From NCBI GenBank assembly GCA_021827665.1, contig JAKAUR010000004.1:1-45472 (forward strand): a DNA stretch of 45,472 nucleotides. Direction: 5' to 3'. This document shows, piece after piece, positions 1 to 36,614 of the stretch. The stretch's first letter is position 1. Each line of letters opens with the position of its first letter. The DNA comes from Microcaldota archaeon (GTDB lineage Archaea > Micrarchaeota > Micrarchaeia > Micrarchaeales > Micrarchaeaceae). The translations under genes were made by a program, and so were the position numbers. The notes below the pieces were generated by a model. The model did not search any database. It saw nothing but the letters and a program-made list of their open reading frames with translations, and was not told the DNA's origin.

Positions 1-2733
1 GAGAATGTGGCGCTTAACATCAATCCAGATGTTGAGAACGTAGGCAACGCAGCGCAGCTTATGAACGGGCAGTCCTATACTGAGGTAACGCAGAAGGTCT
101 ACAACAACATATTCGACAAGCTGCTTGGTAAGGTAACAACATACCAATATTATATCCCGCTTACAGAAGACCTGCTTTCCACAGGAGAACACGGACTTGG
201 ATTTACTGAGGACATATCAGCGCCATTATATGTAAGGGGGGCAGACGGAGTATTGAGGCAGGTAACAAACATAAAGATTCCGCAGCAGCTCGCAATCTCA
301 GAGCTTTCAAAGGCATTGGAAACAGACTTTAACATAGCAAACCCCGAAGAGGTCGCAACAGAGACACTTCCTGAGCTTTACAAGGCTGTGGAAGAAGCAG
401 CCTCAAAGGGCGAAGGAATACCATTCCAAGGAAAGATATACAACGTTGATGAATTCATAAAGGCAATGCAGGGCGGTGCATTTGAGCAGAGCAACCTTCC
501 CGCAATAATAGGAAAGGACGGCCAGCCGCTTGAGCCTAAGGAAGTCTTAAATCTTCTCTTTACTCTTAAGAACGATCCGCCAACAGACTTCATAGGCAAT
601 ATGTGGCAGGGGGTGGCACATGGAAACCCAGCCATTTATTCGCAGGGAACAATATACTCAAATCCTTCATTTTTTGACAGGCTTCTCGGCAGGGCGCAGC
701 AGGACCCTCAAGCAACATTTGAGATACTATTAGTATACCTGAAGAACCTTGCAGTCCAAGATTCAGAGATACCCGCAGATGCAGCAGATAGCGTTGCACA
801 GGACACTGCCTTAAAGCTTACAAACAATATAATTGCACTGCAGAACGCAGCAATGAACTATCTTACAACCCATACGGTTGCGGAGCTCCCAGCAGGCTCA
901 GGAATACCAATGCTTACCGCAGGAATGTCTGGCTTAGAAGCAAAGCTATTCGCAGACTTGGTTTCGCAGGGCTTCCTGAACCAGAACGGCAATCCAGTAA
1001 CGCAGAGCAAAGAAGAAGCTCCAGCTCCAAGCGGCGGAACGCAGCAGGGCAATAGCGAATATATTTACATAGAGAACCCAGACGGCACCGTAACAATCCA
1101 GAAAGTGGTTTATACATCCAATGAGCAGCAGGAACAGCAGGAGATAGAAAAGACCGAGCCAGGAGAAGTGGAAAACCAGGAGCAGGCTACAGGAGCAACA
1201 CAAACAACAGAAGGCCGCCAAGAGCAGGTGCAGGCCAATCCTCCAAGCACAAGGACCATTGTTACTCCTATTCCAGGAACGGACTATGTAATAGTGACTG
1301 ACCAGAACGGAAGGGTCATACGCATACACAGGACCAAAGTCAAGGGCGGAGAGAAGACTAAGGAAGCCGCTCCAGCAACGACAGCAGAAGGCGCAGAATC
1401 TTCACAGAAGAGCGCAGAGCGTACCGCACAAGGTCAGCCTGTAAGGGTAATAAGCAAAGCAATCTCAGTCCAGAAGACCATACCTGCAGAGCTTCAGAAA
1501 GAAGCAGAGCAGACTACAACCACCACTACAAATCCAATTCCTGCTCCGCCAACCCCAACGCGTAAGATTATTATACCGTTGCCGTGGCCAACCTGGCCCA
1601 TCGGCGCAGAGGCTAACTACCACATCATAGAACCAGAGGAGAGCGCAAACATATACAGCCCATCCTTGCTTCCGCTATTGCTTCCAGGCTTGGAGAAATA
1701 CGCAGAGGCTTCATACTCCCCGCTCACAGCCACAACAACGTTCAGGCCGTTAAGGAACCCTACTAACTCTCCTTTGGTCCCAGGCACAGAGCCACTGCCT
1801 CAGGGCAACGCAGTCCAATACAACACACAAACCCCTTCAATACAGGGCAGCGCGGTTAATTCCTATTCAGGCTTAAGCTCGTTGGCAAACTCTCCAGCAT
1901 ATTCCAATATGGTTAATACAATCGCAGACCCAGCAACAATGATGCTGATGCAGAACGCAGTTCAGAAGTTTAACGCCCAGTCCCCTATGCCTCTGCCACA
2001 GGGAACATCCACAGTTCCGTTAAGCCCAATGCAGAACGCACAGAACAACCTCCTTACAGCACAGCTTGGCAGTATGCTTAACCCTCCTGCGCCTAACCCT
2101 AATGCGCCATTGACAAATACGCCCCCAAGGCTTTCGCCCTCAATACAGGGAAGGGCATTAAACCCTATGCCATTGGGGCTTAGCAATTCAATGCAGGGAA
2201 GCGCATTAACTAACCCGATACCATTCGCTAACCTAAGCACATTCGGAGGAGGAGCAAACCCAGCAATGACCAGCGTAATGGGTCAAAGCATAGTCCCGAC
2301 AGCCCAGCAGCTAATATCAAGCTTAGGAATAAACACATTGCTTCAGTATCTCAACAAGGTAATGCCACAGACCTTCAACAGCCAGACGCTTCTTTCAGCA
2401 CCAAAGAGTTTAATCCTCCAAGCGATTGAGAAATTGCCTTACGATGTATTGCTAAACATATTCCTAATGCTTCCAATACAGCAGAGGGCAAACCTGATAA
2501 TGTTAGAAGGCTTGGCAACGACCCCGGGAGAGGCAATGATGATGGCTCAGGGTATGTATGGCTTGATACCAGCCACTATGGCCGAAGCGCAGCTCAACGG
2601 AAATATAAAGAAGCGTATGCCGGGAATGGTAAGCCCGATAGCCCAGCCTACGCCGATAACAATGCCCATGCCTATAACACCTGCTCCAATGCCTGTAAGA
2701 ATGGTAAAGCCAAAGGCACCTGTGGTGGTATGA
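1..2733 (+). CDS. Large repeat-bearing protein of the mobile element, 5'-partial, function unknown
   Basis: The reading frame is open at the first base of the window, so the gene probably starts upstream; the first in-window start is a GTG at 7. About 909 residues are visible. Roughly residues 1-340 look globular. Residues 340-540 are low-complexity, rich in Gln, Glu, Thr and Pro. The last 350 residues are Pro/Asn/Gln/Met-rich and carry recurring short motifs (SIQGSAVN, SIQGRALN, SMQGSALT, LPQGNAV). I see no signal peptide or clear membrane helix, and no enzyme motif. Its stop overlaps the start of the zinc-finger recombinase (ATGA), so both probably share a transcript. Size, composition and repeats would suit a virion structural, tail or adhesion protein of a virus-like element, but this is inference. 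I do not recognise the family. Confidence 0.75.
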   Translation, partial: ENVALNINPDVENVGNAAQLMNGQSYTEVTQKVYNNIFDKLLGKVTTYQYYIPLTEDLLSTGEHGLGFTEDISAPLYVRGADGVLRQVTNIKIPQQLAISELSKALETDFNIANPEEVATETLPELYKAVEEAASKGEGIPFQGKIYNVDEFIKAMQGGAFEQSNLPAIIGKDGQPLEPKEVLNLLFTLKNDPPTDFIGNMWQGVAHGNPAIYSQGTIYSNPSFFDRLLGRAQQDPQATFEILLVYLKNLAVQDSEIPADAADSVAQDTALKLTNNIIALQNAAMNYLTTHTVAELPAGSGIPMLTAGMSGLEAKLFADLVSQGFLNQNGNPVTQSKEEAPAPSGGTQQGNSEYIYIENPDGTVTIQKVVYTSNEQQEQQEIEKTEPGEVENQEQATGATQTTEGRQEQVQANPPSTRTIVTPIPGTDYVIVTDQNGRVIRIHRTKVKGGEKTKEAAPATTAEGAESSQKSAERTAQGQPVRVISKAISVQKTIPAELQKEAEQTTTTTTNPIPAPPTPTRKIIIPLPWPTWPIGAEANYHIIEPEESANIYSPSLLPLLLPGLEKYAEASYSPLTATTTFRPLRNPTNSPLVPGTEPLPQGNAVQYNTQTPSIQGSAVNSYSGLSSLANSPAYSNMVNTIADPATMMLMQNAVQKFNAQSPMPLPQGTSTVPLSPMQNAQNNLLTAQLGSMLNPPAPNPNAPLTNTPPRLSPSIQGRALNPMPLGLSNSMQGSALTNPIPFANLSTFGGGANPAMTSVMGQSIVPTAQQLISSLGINTLLQYLNKVMPQTFNSQTLLSAPKSLILQAIEKLPYDVLLNIFLMLPIQQRANLIMLEGLATTPGEAMMMAQGMYGLIPATMAEAQLNGNIKKRMPGMVSPIAQPTPITMPMPITPAPMPVRMVKPKAPVVV
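1837..2210 (+). repeat. Degenerate coding repeats (xIQGxAxN motif) inside the large protein gene
   Basis: Copies starting near 1837, 2140 and 2187 share the core TCAAT(A/G)CAGGG followed by (C/A)AG(C/G)GC and encode SIQGSAVN, SIQGRALN and SMQGSALT. Looser copies encode LPQGNAVQ and LPQGTSTV. Similarity is visible at both DNA and protein level, which points to local duplication inside the C-terminal Pro/Asn-rich domain. Confidence 0.55.
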
Positions 2734-3593
2734 TGGAAAGGCAGCTATATCGAACAAGCTGGCAATTCGTAGATCGTGCGAGCGCAGATAAGACAGTCTA
2801 TGAAATGTTTCAAAAGGCAATGGCGGAAACCACACTCTTCAGGCACAAGCAGCTCTTCTTCCAATACGCGATGTTTCTGTACCTTGCGGGGGCGCGGCGG
2901 GTTGAGCCGTTTTTGTCTCCTGTTTCTGTTATAAAAATGAGCGAAAAAGGTGGGTTATTTTATAAAGTTCAGCACCAAAATGCAAAGCACTTTTCAAGCA
3001 CAAAGATTGTTTGCAAGATTTGTGAGCAAGGCTTCAACTCAATTAAAAAACTACATACTCACCAAGTTGAGACAAGTCACAAAGGATTCCAATACATGGC
3101 AAGCCGCAAAATGCTAAGTTCTATCTTTTATGTTTTCGGCTCTTATGAAGCAGCAATGTTTAGGTACATAACCAACGACAAGCAACAAATAAGATTAGAC
3201 TTTACTCCGCTACTGCCGCCAAGAGCACAGAGTGCAATCGTTGACGGGGAGGTTGTCGACATGCAGCTTTTGGAATCGGGCGTTGCGAAGCTTACAAGAA
3301 AGTTCAAGATCTTCAAAGCAGACATAACGGATGGCAACCAGGTTTATAAGAATAGTTCGATAAGCCCACACCAGTTAAGACATTTAAGAGCCTACGACTT
3401 ATTAGCCAACCATTCAATACCGCTGCACCTCGCGCAGAAGTTATTAGGTTGGAATAGCAGCGATATGGCAGTCAGATATGCAGACATTGCAGGAGTTATA
3501 AACGATGCCGAGACAATGGCGATGTGGCAGAATGTTTTAAACAAACCAAGTACAATAGAAACCAGCACAGCCTTGTTTAACCACATGCCTTAA
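2730..3593 (+). CDS. Tyrosine recombinase with inserted classical C2H2 zinc finger
   Basis: 287 residues. Tyrosine recombinase catalytic signature: first Arg in AGARRVE (R56, matching the usual TGxRxxE), HQLR (H214, R217), LGW (W241 in the usual His/Trp position) and the nucleophile Y250 in RYADI. Between the first Arg and the HxxR box lies a full C2H2 finger: C95-x2-C98-x3-F102-x5-L108-x2-H111-x5-H117, with the Phe and Leu core residues in place. The protein would cut and rejoin DNA through a 3'-phosphotyrosine link; the finger may add DNA recognition. The region before R56 is short, so a full core-binding domain is missing or reduced. Start: ATG at 2730 overlaps the upstream stop; the second ATG at 2733 is an equal alternative. 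It is followed by a 618-bp structured stretch that may hold its target site. Confidence 0.85.
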   Translation: MMERQLYRTSWQFVDRASADKTVYEMFQKAMAETTLFRHKQLFFQYAMFLYLAGARRVEPFLSPVSVIKMSEKGGLFYKVQHQNAKHFSSTKIVCKICEQGFNSIKKLHTHQVETSHKGFQYMASRKMLSSIFYVFGSYEAAMFRYITNDKQQIRLDFTPLLPPRAQSAIVDGEVVDMQLLESGVAKLTRKFKIFKADITDGNQVYKNSSISPHQLRHLRAYDLLANHSIPLHLAQKLLGWNSSDMAVRYADIAGVINDAETMAMWQNVLNKPSTIETSTALFNHMP

Positions 3594-5502: not shown

Positions 5503-8121
5503 CTATTCTCCATCAGCATGAGTTAAACGCCAAAGACCCGGCCTCGGGCTGTAAATGTCGCCAATACGCTCCAGTTCTTTCAGAGCGTCCCTAATCTGGT
5601 CAGGATAAAGACCAGCCAAGGCATCGTAGAGCTGCGGGTCAGGGTTGTCAGGGTCAAGGGGAAGGTTAAGCTCCTGGCCCCTGCGGACTGCGGCAAGGAC
5701 TTGCTGGAGCATTCTAAGCTTTGGGTCTTGAGCGTCAGACCCCTGGCTGGAAACCATAGGGCCAGGGGTCGAAGGTGTTTGGGATACAGAAGTGCTGGGC
5801 TGCTGGAAAGGTGTAGAACCAGCAGCCATTGCTGGGCTCTCCTCCTGCCCAGCTGTAGGTAAAGGACTTGACTGAGGAGCGGAAGGGTTGGCAGGTTTGG
5901 CAGGGTCTTTGGGGCTTTGGAGATTTTCAGAAGCGGAATTTGATTGACTTAATTGACTTCCATTTTCTTGGAAGGCATTAAGATTAGGATTTGGCTGTGT
6001 GTAACAAGTTTTGTCGTCGGAAATTTGGGTATTTTCTGATTTTGTCGTCGTAGAAGCAGGGTGTAACGAATTTTCAGCAGTTTTGTCGTCGGAAAAGTTA
6101 GGATTTTGGGGTGTTACACAATTTTCATTTTGTAGACCTATTATTACGGAATTAGCTATAAAGGAAGAATATATGTGTAACTTGTGTAACAGTGTAACAT
6201 TATTATTATTTATATTCAATATCCCTTTTACTTTTTCTGTTACACTTTGCGTTCCACTTGCGTTCCACTGATTATTGCTGTTTTTCTGCATTTCTGCAAC
6301 AGGTATTTTGGCAAAACTGCTTATTGCACTCCCAAACCTGTGCCTGGCTTCCCTATTATAAACCTCGTTTGGCTCGAGTCCCAGAACCGGCGCTAACTCT
6401 TTGAAAGCCCCCAGGTTTCGGAAGCGACCAGAAAGGGGGTGCTTCTGGTCCTTGTTGACATGCGACAGGTACATGCCGCTAACGTAGAGCCACTTTTCGT
6501 CCTTGTCCAGCATAGTACCAAGTTTGACATCGCCCCACCGTCCAGCTGAAATCTGATCGAAATCATTCTGGATTATGAGTACCGCGTCCTCCCTTGGGTC
6601 ACTGCCACCCAGAGCTTCCACCTTGACCTCATCTAAAGCTTCTGGGCTAAGCTTTCCCAAAAATGCAAGACCTAACAGCATAGATGCCACAACTGAATTC
6701 CCATCAGCCAGTCTATATGCCTCAAGTACTGCCTGTTCGAGTTCGTTTGCAGTATGATCCTGTAACCATAGGTAAACCAGCCCACCCTCTTTCACCTTTG
6801 CGGCAAACAAATCGTGCTCCACCCGCTTGGCTGCGTCTATATCTCCCTCTTCGTAGTTGTTTACGTAGAGCCGATTTCCTACAGCCAGGTCATCAGAGAG
6901 GGTACCGACTCCGAGGTAAATATTTGTTTGAGCAGTACTGACTATAGTTGCTTTCATGCTGTATGTAGTTACAGATTGGTCAGCCCTACCTCGTGCCCCT
7001 ATTGCACCCATGCTTTTCGCTTTGAGCAAATCAATAAGCTGCTTACCCACTGCGCCTGCTTCGTCAATAAGAACGGGTAAGTTTGTTGCACTTACCGCAC
7101 TTTCGAATCTAAAAGCGCTTGTAAAGACATCAGAATTCAATAATGTGCCAGCAGCCGGTGAAAGCTCAATGCCAAGATAAAGTTTTACTGCAATCTTAGT
7201 GATCCAAGTTTTACCAGTGAGTGTTGCCCCTGATAAATGCACCATGACCTCTCGAAGCCCTAACTTCCTGATGTTGTTGACTACATTAAATAGGGTTGCC
7301 CCTATTATTATCGTGAGGTCTGCCCTTTGCTTTGGGCTGGCAATGCCCCAGAGCTCTGAGCTTAGCGTTTCTAATTCCCCCCTATTAGTGCTGAGAACGA
7401 GCGCTGCTTTAAGGCGCTGCGCGTACCAGTTGTTTGTATAGACGAGATCAAGTGGTGGCAAGGTTAAATAGTTGTTTATTTCGACAAGCTCAAGTCCATA
7501 TGGTTGTCCTTCCTCAACAGATAACAAGCTCAAGGCTGCAAAAGCAGTATCCCTGTGTTTTATCGGCACTCCGACTTTTATGAAGTAATCTTTCGCAGGC
7601 AGGAATAACTTGTGCTTTTTGTCGAGTACAAAAAGCTCGTTTTCTTTTGCATAAATTAATAAATCGTTGCAGTTAAGTGGAAAAATCTTCTCCCTAAAAC
7701 TTGGATAAGTGCCATTCTTGCCTTGTTCATAGTGCTGAACAACGCATGCTCCTGCGCCGTCCCATAACGCTGCCTTTCTGGTTTCGCCGTTTGCAAATTC
7801 CTCGAGTACGATTGCGTCTCCTTCCTGGTGCAAGTTCAAATTACTGCGCTGTTCCTCGACATAGAGTTGTTCAATAGCTTTTTTTATAGGGCCTTCAAGT
7901 GCCTCTGAATTGCTTTTGTGGGATTCATAAAAGTCTTTACTCACGAAAACGGCCCAATCCTCAGCGCGGAAGTTTACAGTCGTTCCAACAATCTCTCCAG
8001 CAAGTATTCTGGGCTCCAGCAGCTTCAGAAATTCATCAGCACCTTCCTTGCGTATGCTGACGTAGCCGTCACGCTCAAACATTCCTGCCCAGTCTCCAGG
8101 ACTCAAATCTTTGTCAGTCAT
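5503..8121 (-). CDS. AAA+/SF3-like replication helicase of the mobile element
   Basis: 872 residues. An N-terminal 290-residue region of unknown fold precedes an ATPase core: Walker A GATLTGKT (298-305), Walker B LPVLIDEAG (348-356) and a polar sensor-1 segment (STAQTN, 396-401). This layout fits the virus- and plasmid-type initiator helicases (SF3/DUF927-like) that unwind an origin and drive the fork. Residues about 612-800 are a low-complexity Asn/Ser/Pro/Gln linker. The last 65 residues (LYDALAGLYPDQIRDALKE, then GLWRLT) look like a winged helix. GGGGTGGG precedes the ATG at 8121, which overlaps the upstream Sm-like stop (ATGA). The linker-coding DNA contains a cluster of GTGTAAC repeats that may be the origin. 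The assignment rests on motifs, so the exact family is uncertain. Confidence 0.8.
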   Translation of the reverse strand: MTDKDLSPGDWAGMFERDGYVSIRKEGADEFLKLLEPRILAGEIVGTTVNFRAEDWAVFVSKDFYESHKSNSEALEGPIKKAIEQLYVEEQRSNLNLHQEGDAIVLEEFANGETRKAALWDGAGACVVQHYEQGKNGTYPSFREKIFPLNCNDLLIYAKENELFVLDKKHKLFLPAKDYFIKVGVPIKHRDTAFAALSLLSVEEGQPYGLELVEINNYLTLPPLDLVYTNNWYAQRLKAALVLSTNRGELETLSSELWGIASPKQRADLTIIIGATLFNVVNNIRKLGLREVMVHLSGATLTGKTWITKIAVKLYLGIELSPAAGTLLNSDVFTSAFRFESAVSATNLPVLIDEAGAVGKQLIDLLKAKSMGAIGARGRADQSVTTYSMKATIVSTAQTNIYLGVGTLSDDLAVGNRLYVNNYEEGDIDAAKRVEHDLFAAKVKEGGLVYLWLQDHTANELEQAVLEAYRLADGNSVVASMLLGLAFLGKLSPEALDEVKVEALGGSDPREDAVLIIQNDFDQISAGRWGDVKLGTMLDKDEKWLYVSGMYLSHVNKDQKHPLSGRFRNLGAFKELAPVLGLEPNEVYNREARHRFGSAISSFAKIPVAEMQKNSNNQWNASGTQSVTEKVKGILNINNNNVTLLHKLHIYSSFIANSVIIGLQNENCVTPQNPNFSDDKTAENSLHPASTTTKSENTQISDDKTCYTQPNPNLNAFQENGSQLSQSNSASENLQSPKDPAKPANPSAPQSSPLPTAGQEESPAMAAGSTPFQQPSTSVSQTPSTPGPMVSSQGSDAQDPKLRMLQQVLAAVRRGQELNLPLDPDNPDPQLYDALAGLYPDQIRDALKELERIGDIYSPRPGLWRLTHADGE
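5999..6245. repeat. GTGTAAC iteron cluster, candidate replication origin inside the helicase gene
   Basis: GTGTAAC occurs at 5999, 6061, 6175, 6184 and 6192, and its complement GTTACAC at 6113 and 6239: seven exact 7-mers in 247 bp. Copies at 6175, 6184 and 6192 are spaced 9 and 8 bp; several of the others are about 50-60 bp apart. Interleaved are TTTTGTCGTCGGAAA at 6009 and 6081 and an 11-bp partial copy at 6040. A very AT-rich block lies at 6199-6232. The cluster encodes helicase linker residues about 626-708. Repeats plus an AT-rich block is the usual design of iteron origins. Confidence 0.65.
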
Positions 8122-9664: not shown

Positions 9665-10858
9665 TTATTTCTTCCCCCTCTTTAGCTTCTTAGCAACTTC
9701 CTTGACAAGCTCGTCCATCTGCTTTGCATCAAGTGCTGCATGTAATGCTGTTTTTTCAAGCGTGGCCTCTTGCTGTGCAACCGCAAAGTCCCTTGGCCTG
9801 CCACAGCCACTGCAGAACCTTGCATCTGCTCCATTTAGCTTGCCGCAGTACTGACAGGTCCAACCTTTAAGTATGCTTGGTTCAGGCTCGACTTTGACTT
9901 GGTCTCCAGCTGCAGCGAGTATATGCTCTCTTGTATCTCCGTCAGTTAAATGACTATAAGTCGCTTCTGCAATGTTGCTTCCAGGGGTATGTCCTACTTG
10001 TTTCTTAATTGCTGACATAGGCACGCCGCGGTTAATCCAACAAGTAATTCTCGAATGCCGTAGCATGTAAAGCCAAATGCGTGGCTTCTGTATGTTTGCA
10101 GCCTTGCATGCTCTCTTAAATGCTATCGATATTGCATTCGGAGATAGCGAGTTGCCGTTGTAATCAGCCCATAGCCAGTCGTCAGGCTTCTTGTCAGGGA
10201 CGCTGTTCAGGTATGCGCTCAGAAAAGGTATGCTGAAGCTTGACAACCAACCTTTGCGCCTTCCCGTCTTGCCGTCAATATAAATGAATCCTTCAGCAAG
10301 GTTTACGTCGCGCATTTTTATTTGCGTTTCTCCGCTTCTTAGCGCCAGATCATATATAACCGCAATTGCACTTTTATCCCGAAGGTTCTTTAAATGCTTG
10401 ACAACTTCCAAAACCTCTTGTTCGTTTAGCAAGTCAGCCCCGTCAATCTGGTTCCTTGGCCTGCCTGTTTTTATGAATCCAACCGCTTCAGGTATTCTTA
10501 TATCAGAGCCAAAAAAGTGGCGGTAAAAAGCCTTCACAACCATACGTGCCGTCGTTTTAGTCCAATCTGCGTATTTTGAATTGTTTAGTTCTGCGATAGC
10601 CTTCATCATCTGTGACTTAGTTATCTTTTCAAAATTAGTACGCTTGGGGAAGAATTGCATCGCATGCTCCATGCCATATAACCATTTGGCTATAGTCTTA
10701 GGATCAGAGCCATTGCCAGTTGCTCCACCGCTTGCCTCAAGCCATTCCACAAGACTTTCTGTAACCAGCTTCTTGTTATGCTCAGTAATGTCAGGGTTGC
10801 TGCGAATGCGCTTTACGATACTCTTAATTGTCCTCGTAGTTAAGTCATCTTTTGCCAT
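9665..10858 (-). CDS. Tyrosine integrase with C-terminal double zinc ribbon
   Basis: 397 residues from the ATG at 10858; a TTG at 10876 would add six. TTTTTTAA about 26 bp before this ATG may be the TATA element. The N-terminal 130 residues are a helical core-binding (SAM-like) domain. Catalytic domain: LALRSGE (R174), YMLRHSR (R267; Tyr stands where the HxxR box normally starts with His), VGHTPGS (H290) and nucleophile Y301 in TYSHL. The C-terminal extension has CQYCGK and CSGCGR (C335, C338, C349, C352), a zinc ribbon, then a helical tail. It abuts the 3' end of tRNA-Phe, the usual place for an archaeal tRNA-targeting integrase, so it probably inserted this element. The enzyme would act by 3'-phosphotyrosine chemistry. 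Confidence 0.9.
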   Translation of the reverse strand: MAKDDLTTRTIKSIVKRIRSNPDITEHNKKLVTESLVEWLEASGGATGNGSDPKTIAKWLYGMEHAMQFFPKRTNFEKITKSQMMKAIAELNNSKYADWTKTTARMVVKAFYRHFFGSDIRIPEAVGFIKTGRPRNQIDGADLLNEQEVLEVVKHLKNLRDKSAIAVIYDLALRSGETQIKMRDVNLAEGFIYIDGKTGRRKGWLSSFSIPFLSAYLNSVPDKKPDDWLWADYNGNSLSPNAISIAFKRACKAANIQKPRIWLYMLRHSRITCWINRGVPMSAIKKQVGHTPGSNIAEATYSHLTDGDTREHILAAAGDQVKVEPEPSILKGWTCQYCGKLNGADARFCSGCGRPRDFAVAQQEATLEKTALHAALDAKQMDELVKEVAKKLKRGKK

Positions 10859-10914
10859 AATTATATTTGGTTCCAAAAGGTTAAAAAACTATCGGAGTTA
10901 AACATATTAACCAT

Positions 10915-10986
10915 TGCCGCTGGTCGGATTTGAACCGACGACATTTCGGTCTTCAGCCGAACGCTCTCCCACTGAGCTACAGCGGC
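10915..10986 (-). tRNA. tRNA-Phe (anticodon GAA)
   Basis: The minus strand folds into a complete cloverleaf: acceptor GCCGCTG pairing with CAGCGGC, D-stem GCTC/GAGC, anticodon stem TTCGG/CCGAA with loop CTGAAGA giving anticodon GAA, T-stem GTCGG/CCGAC with loop TTCGAAT, and discriminator A. It is 72 nt with no intron and no encoded CCA. Its 3' end faces the integrase gene and the mobile element, so it is the likely attachment site. Confidence 0.97.
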
Positions 10987-36518: not shown

Positions 36519-36614
36519 TCAGTAATCGTCGCTTTCGTCGTCTTCGTCGTCGTCCATGTCGTCGTCTTCATCCATGTCTTCGTCGTCTTCGTCTACGTCT
36601 TCATCCTTTGCCAT
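36519..36614 (-). CDS. 31-residue highly acidic microprotein
   Basis: ATG at 36614, stop TGA at 36519-36521. Of 31 residues, 23 are Asp or Glu (MAKDEDVDEDDEDMDEDD begins it; it ends ESDDY). A perfect GGTGAT ribosome binding site lies 3 nt before the ATG, a TATA-like CTTTTATATC (about 36654-36663) lies about 40-50 bp upstream, and a T-rich terminator follows. These three signals together support a real gene despite its size. It sits between cdc48 and EF-1A. Possible roles are a polyanionic partner of basic proteins or a DNA mimic; neither is shown. Confidence 0.7.
   Translation of the reverse strand: MAKDEDVDEDDEDMDEDDDMDDDEDDESDDY

Follow-up and report, generated by a model that had tools for sequence, protein, structure and literature searches.

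The window analysed here, a stretch of 45,472 nucleotides from the start of the archaeal contig JAKAUR010000004.1, carries on its minus strand an intact frame of 872 codons (5503–8121) that encodes an AAA+ protein, our proposed initiator helicase, with a Walker A motif (GATLTGKT, residues 298–305) and a Walker B motif (LIDEAG). The original prediction placed a low-complexity linker between the AAA+ core and a C-terminal winged helix of this protein, and such a linker is indeed present: residues 611–795 (5737–6291, minus strand) consist to 52–69% of N/S/T/Q/P/G, compared with 29% in the core, and lead into a winged-helix-like domain (residues 796–872; 5506–5736, minus strand) that is similar to the C-terminal winged helix of archaeal MCM. 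According to a domain search, this terminal domain is not HTH_56, but is MCM-like instead. Profiles of the winged helix also produce weak matches across the archaeal class, which, judging from the loci that we opened, appear to be the MCM helicases of the hosts and not proteins of mobile elements.

The AAA+ core itself has no Pfam match (E ≤ 1) and no match to a PHROG family. We compared it with four helicase profiles built in this analysis, and the DUF927-helicase profile aligned to residues 245–361 in hhalign with both Walker motifs in register, a weak match at a probability of 48% and a single-comparison E of 1.8e-4. Two of the other profiles reached 0.1% and 1.6%, and the remaining one matched the winged helix alone, leaving DUF927/Cch as the only noticeable match to the core. 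The earlier description of the protein as a helicase thus stands in part: the Walker motifs and the weak DUF927 match make this identity probable, whereas the core falls into no Pfam family. AlphaFold models from the single sequence were too poor for use, with a pLDDT of 54 for the winged helix and 34 for the core. A tblastn-confirmed search of GTDB, IMG/VR, and phage and plasmid records found no homologue of the full protein, nor was one found among 301 genomes of the class, where a single C-terminal match in one genome (G052, described below) was the only one obtained.

Close to the helicase gene, an intact ORF encodes a tyrosine integrase (9665–10876, minus strand; Pfam Phage_integrase, 5e-17), and the adjoining tRNA-Phe(GAA) gene (10915–10986, minus strand, identified by tRNA match) is its likely integration target. 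No second copy of an att site was found within the 45-kb window, and the contig begins inside a gene. The remaining 300 genomes of the class yielded neither a homologue of the whole helicase nor the close triple of heptamers described below, which fits a mobile element. With the integrase abutting tRNA-Phe, we infer that the helicase belongs to such an element. Judging from a relative in the same order, the host lineage is probably Micrarchaeota.

Several further features of the window were recorded. At the start of the contig (1–2733) lies the gene of a 908-aa protein without a Pfam family. Its N-terminal 33 residues recur at 97% identity within a 1024-aa frame on a different contig of this assembly (C25), and a second genome (G127) has a 56% homologue, so that the contig may be interrupted at a gene that is present more than once. 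This gene is followed by a second, partial tyrosine-integrase-like protein (2730–3593), corresponding to the C-terminal part of Phage_integrase and encoded on the strand opposite the main integrase. A tandem repeat array, TCGTCGTCT / TCGTCGTCTTCG, is located at 36526–36602.

Inside the helicase coding sequence, in the first half of the segment that encodes the linker, seven exact copies of the heptamer GTGTAAC form an array (5999–6245), which we propose to be an iteron origin. Counting exact motifs, we found five direct copies on the plus strand, namely copy 1 (5999–6005), copy 2 (6061–6067), and copies 4–6, which start at 6175, 6184 and 6192 and make up the close tandem GTGTAACttGTGTAACaGTGTAAC (6175–6198), as well as two inverted copies on the minus strand, copy 3 (6113–6119) and copy 7 (6239–6245). 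These 247 bp therefore hold the same five direct and two inverted heptamers that had first drawn attention to the locus, and there are no others in 45 kb. At the background density, 0.004 copies would be expected per 247 bp (P(≥7) ~2e-21), and dinucleotide shuffles of the whole window yield 2.7 copies over 45 kb, or ~0.015 per 247 bp, so that both estimates lie well within the chance level of fewer than 0.1 copies put forward previously. A comparable density elsewhere, which had been named as an observation that would speak against an origin, was not found: the whole assembly of 852,456 bp contains 20 copies, of which the 13 outside the array are sparsely distributed with no more than 2 per contig. 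Since the reversed control motif occurs 57 times in the same assembly, GTGTAAC is otherwise rare there. The close tandem triple of GTGTAAC is found in 1 of the 301 genomes of the class, the present one.

Between copies 6 and 7 lies an AT-rich block (6199–6238; 85% AT), a candidate duplex-unwinding element, and the value of 85% also holds for the slightly shorter interval, 6199–6232, in which it had been claimed. Within the helicase gene, the array has an AT content of 66%, compared with 53% in the sequence that precedes it and 49% in the sequence that follows. The block is not unique in its composition, with ~93 of 45,400 40-bp windows being equally or more AT-rich. A second repeat had been noticed among the heptamers, and our repeat search recovered three copies of TTTTGTCGTCG on the plus strand, at 6009–6019, 6040–6050 and 6081–6091, the middle one in a codon phase different from that of the other two. 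The same search identified two tandem 11-bp TTGCGTTCCAC repeats directly beyond the last heptamer (6247–6268, plus strand), each of which holds a one-mismatch iteron, GTGGAAC, on the minus strand (two in all).

Repeats in a coding sequence can arise as a by-product of a repetitive low-complexity peptide, and the linker, rich in N/S/T/Q/P, would offer a setting for this; many GTGTAAC arrays located inside ORFs in IMG/VR in fact simply reflect a repeated peptide (e.g., VTP or GYTG). The copies in the window, however, occupy phases 0, 1 and 2 of the coding sequence and both orientations of the ORF (5503–8121, minus strand), where they encode seven different peptides, SVT, CVT, VTL, LLH, KLH, SLH and CYT. 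Furthermore, synonymous codon shuffling of the ORF gave a mean of 0.79 GTGTAAC and a maximum of 4 in 5000 trials, compared with the 7 observed. From the use of three phases and both strands, together with the excess over all synonymous shuffles, it follows that the array is constrained as DNA rather than as peptide. We hence rejected the peptide explanation on the phase and strand usage of the seven copies and assign it a negligible probability. Alternatively, the helicase mRNA could contain a structured element or a hairpin with a regulatory role: the inverted copies can pair, with the longest arms at 6112–6127 and 6176–6191. Five of the seven heptamers are direct, however, Rfam matches nothing but the tRNA, and the folding z-score is −1.57. 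Given the weak folding and the missing Rfam match, this candidate was likewise rejected, and we hold it to be very improbable.

To place the array in a wider context, we scanned IMG/VR for three close copies of GTGTAAC, blind to genes, and obtained at least 120 contigs, among which intergenic arrays of mixed orientation number 61; the reversed motif gave 51 matches, only 3 of which were of this kind. Across the loci L040–L159, GTGTAAC arrays are widespread on phage contigs, where they are mostly intergenic, of mixed orientation, and situated beside helicase-primase genes. Among the matches listed, we scanned 21 long ORFs that point toward an array with their 3′ end, and nearly all of them are replicative helicase-primases, with overlapping assignments to DUF5906 (10), VapE (7), DUF927 (5), Cch HTH_56 (5), Prim-Pol (4), DUF3987 (3) and D5_N (3). 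BLAST separates the array-facing helicases among these matches into at least five groups, between which no similarity is detectable. Again among the matches listed, the arrays begin between 0 and ~250 bp past the stop codon, apart from a few that begin shortly before it, and have the same anatomy as in the window, with clusters of heptamers, usually around AT-rich tracts; in a few listed helicases of other groups (L115, L043 and L124), copies overlap the end of the coding sequence.

In a complementary comparison, loci were chosen by their helicase and not by the motif. We picked 74 DUF927/Cch-type loci by protein similarity and compared the 400 bp behind the stop codon with other windows of the locus; the query alignment (A6) was built partly from helicases that had been found through the motif, and the 74 loci thus start from that family. 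Per 400 bp, these loci contain 6.8 GTAAC/GTTAC pentamers behind the helicase versus 0.43 elsewhere. The GTAAC-core array exceeds every control window of its own locus in 62 of the 74 loci, and the top heptamer exceeds all control windows in 65 of 74; an earlier count over 73 DUF927/Cch-type loci agrees with this result. GTGTAAC is the commonest heptamer across the 74 loci, followed by GTAACAA, GGTAACC, GTAACCA, GCGTAAC and others, with unrelated ones being rare. The heptamer differs between elements, yet it repeats inside each of them, so that the position of the array is kept while the heptamer drifts, which is what iterons would be expected to show. Repeats with a GTAAC core are located at the same place behind the helicase in four annotated phages as well. 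Behind other helicase families the picture is less uniform than behind DUF927, with 40 of 75 VapE loci and 23 of 75 DUF3987 loci having a top heptamer that exceeds every control window. Beyond what overall identity explains, the sharing of iterons between 47 non-redundant DUF927 loci follows residues 561–610, a small effect (maximum r 0.21; 0 of 500 permutations) in a statistic from which kinship is only partly removed. These residues are in or next to the HTH domain of Cch (510–604).

Arrays of this type could also serve another protein than the helicase. Terminase_2 is found in 15 of the 61 proteins flanking GTGTAAC arrays among the IMG/VR matches listed, and because terminase small-subunit genes adjoin them, some of these arrays may be regulatory or packaging sites, such as late-operon operators or pac/cos sites. 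The array in the window could by the same token be an operator or centromere for an element-encoded regulator or partition protein that lies in the helicase gene by chance, and its combination of inverted and direct copies could suit a dimeric regulator. It is situated mid-gene, however, ~1.9 kb from the start of the helicase (8121), without a promoter-like excess. In addition, nearly all of the DUF927/Cch-type loci, which were selected blind to the motif, place the array behind the helicase itself, and the site just downstream of such helicases has been reported as their own origin (PMC7581432). We therefore consider a regulator or partition site unlikely.

For an origin read by its own helicase, the closest known system is SaPI Rep/Cch. 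Cch contains DUF927, and both Cch and SaPIbov1 Rep are of the DUF927 type (PMC7581432). SaPI Rep is stated there, with reference to Ubeda et al. 2007, to recognise iterons directly downstream of its own gene via its C-terminal domain, and Cch2 was shown in vitro to bind direct repeats that lie downstream of its gene, as was its C-terminal domain alone (PMC7581432). Because SaPI Rep and Cch2 read repeats downstream of their genes, the arrays of our comparison sets are most likely origins read by the adjacent helicases. The system in the window has in common with SaPI Rep/Cch an AAA+ protein of a mobile element, with a C-terminal domain that is here a putative DNA-binding one, and short repeats toward the 3′ end of the helicase gene. 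It differs in that its host is archaeal, its C-terminal domain is MCM-like and not the HTH_56 of Cch, and its core is weakly DUF927-like; moreover, the origin of SaPI Rep/Cch is directly downstream of the gene, whereas the array in the window is surrounded by coding sequence and precedes the part that encodes the C-terminal domain. Loci of bacterial phages with DUF927/HTH_56 helicases, for example those of Roseburia phage Jekyll and Thermoanaerobacterium phage THSA-485A, similarly feature clusters of GTAAC-core iterons at the helicase 3′ end, where they surround AT-rich tracts, but their arrays begin past the stop codon. The array in the window has the characteristics of GTAAC-core arrays, i.e., a heptamer repeated in both orientations close to an AT-rich tract. 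Because it is enclosed in the coding sequence (5999–6245), we regard the window system as a variant and not as a typical member of the SaPI Rep/Cch type.

This enclosed position could in principle result from decay, the frame having fused through an old downstream origin in an element that is now a non-replicating remnant. The missing second att site and the start of the contig inside a gene are compatible with such a history. Nevertheless, nothing interrupts the 872-codon frame, the integrase ORF is likewise intact and its domain recognisable, and all seven heptamers are exact, and hence we consider a decayed origin improbable.

Phage lambda had been proposed as a parallel, with its O gene carrying iterons and an AT-rich block inside the coding sequence of an initiator, as would be the case here. 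Lambda O, however, is not a helicase, P being the protein that recruits DnaB; O binds DNA with its N-terminal part, and the lambda iterons are unrelated to GTGTAAC. SaPI Rep/Cch is the closer parallel, although the origin is downstream of the gene there. The location of the lambda ori within gene O is stated in PMC6022878. In the open-licence literature on iterons, origins and DUF927, we found no description of the GTGTAAC heptamer.

Within the archaeal class, the single C-terminal match to the window protein belongs to the helicase of a Micrarchaeota element in G052 (L002/L466, JAJZLJ010000008.1), with 29% identity over 183 aa comprising part of the linker and the terminal domain. In this helicase, too, a comparable linker leads into the same C-terminal winged helix, whereas its core is that of a DUF5906/D5 helicase; a search of IMG/VR for archaeal D5 relatives found none. 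Since the domain beyond the array has a protein-level relative in G052, the frame in the window is likely translated through the array. The linker of the G052 protein contains three tandem ATTGTCAAC, a number within the range of synonymous shuffles, and these are no more than suggestive. Only a 16-bp palindrome, TTCCATAATTATGGAA, exceeds the shuffles, with three near-copies in the gene (L002:1345–1849), two of them exact, compared with at most one after shuffling. A winged helix and palindromes near the linker weakly suggest that the two proteins share a design. A different arrangement is seen in G240, a genome of the same class with an archaeal DUF927/HTH_56 helicase that has AGTGTACAA iterons directly behind its gene; five AGTGTACA iterons, direct and inverted, are located just past the stop codon (L467:250–667). 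A 493-aa protein in G101 (L036:2099–3577) ends in a similar winged helix (GEIYQPKEGIWKL) and is possibly another replication protein of an element.

Weighing these observations, we think it probable that the array is the iteron origin of a tRNA-integrated mobile element in a Micrarchaeota-like archaeon, read by the self-loading AAA+ initiator helicase that contains it, in the manner of SaPI Rep/Cch. An iteron origin within the linker of its initiator, as originally predicted, is the best-supported reading, given that the array is constrained as DNA and rare elsewhere and that the same heptamer recurs behind phage helicases. The C-terminal winged helix, as the likely reader, would bind the GTGTAAC heptamers, and the AAA+ core would form rings on the array and melt the AT-rich block at 6199–6238, the likely melting site, where the helicase would begin unwinding. 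The TTTTGTCGTCG and TTGCGTTCCAC repeats may act as secondary sites. Because the frame runs through the array into the C-terminal DNA-binding domain, the origin would at the same time encode a flexible linker. Weighing against this reading are the location of the array inside a gene, the weak match to DUF927, and the type of the C-terminal domain; as the C-terminus is MCM-like and not the HTH_56 of Cch, the same heptamer would be read by a different domain. Given that no close homologue was found, that the core assignment is weak and the structural models are poor, and that some IMG/VR arrays adjoin terminase genes, there is also room for a regulatory role.

More broadly, a GTAAC-core iteron code may be common to the origins of at least five BLAST-dissimilar groups of phage helicases and to an archaeal element whose helicase gene has swallowed the origin, making one gene both initiator and origin, with an exchangeable binding domain (MCM-type here, Cch-type in the phages). 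We put this forward tentatively, as a proposal with slightly less than an even chance of being correct. What seems to be new here is the placement of the origin inside the helicase gene, the mechanism itself being already known. For many uncultured phages, candidate origins could be predicted from sequence alone wherever a GTAAC-core array lies no more than 400 bp from the stop codon of a DUF927-type helicase, a rule that is less reliable behind VapE and DUF3987 helicases. For the DPANN archaea, a mobile element gains a concrete candidate origin and, possibly, a one-gene replicon becomes available for hosts that lack genetic tools.
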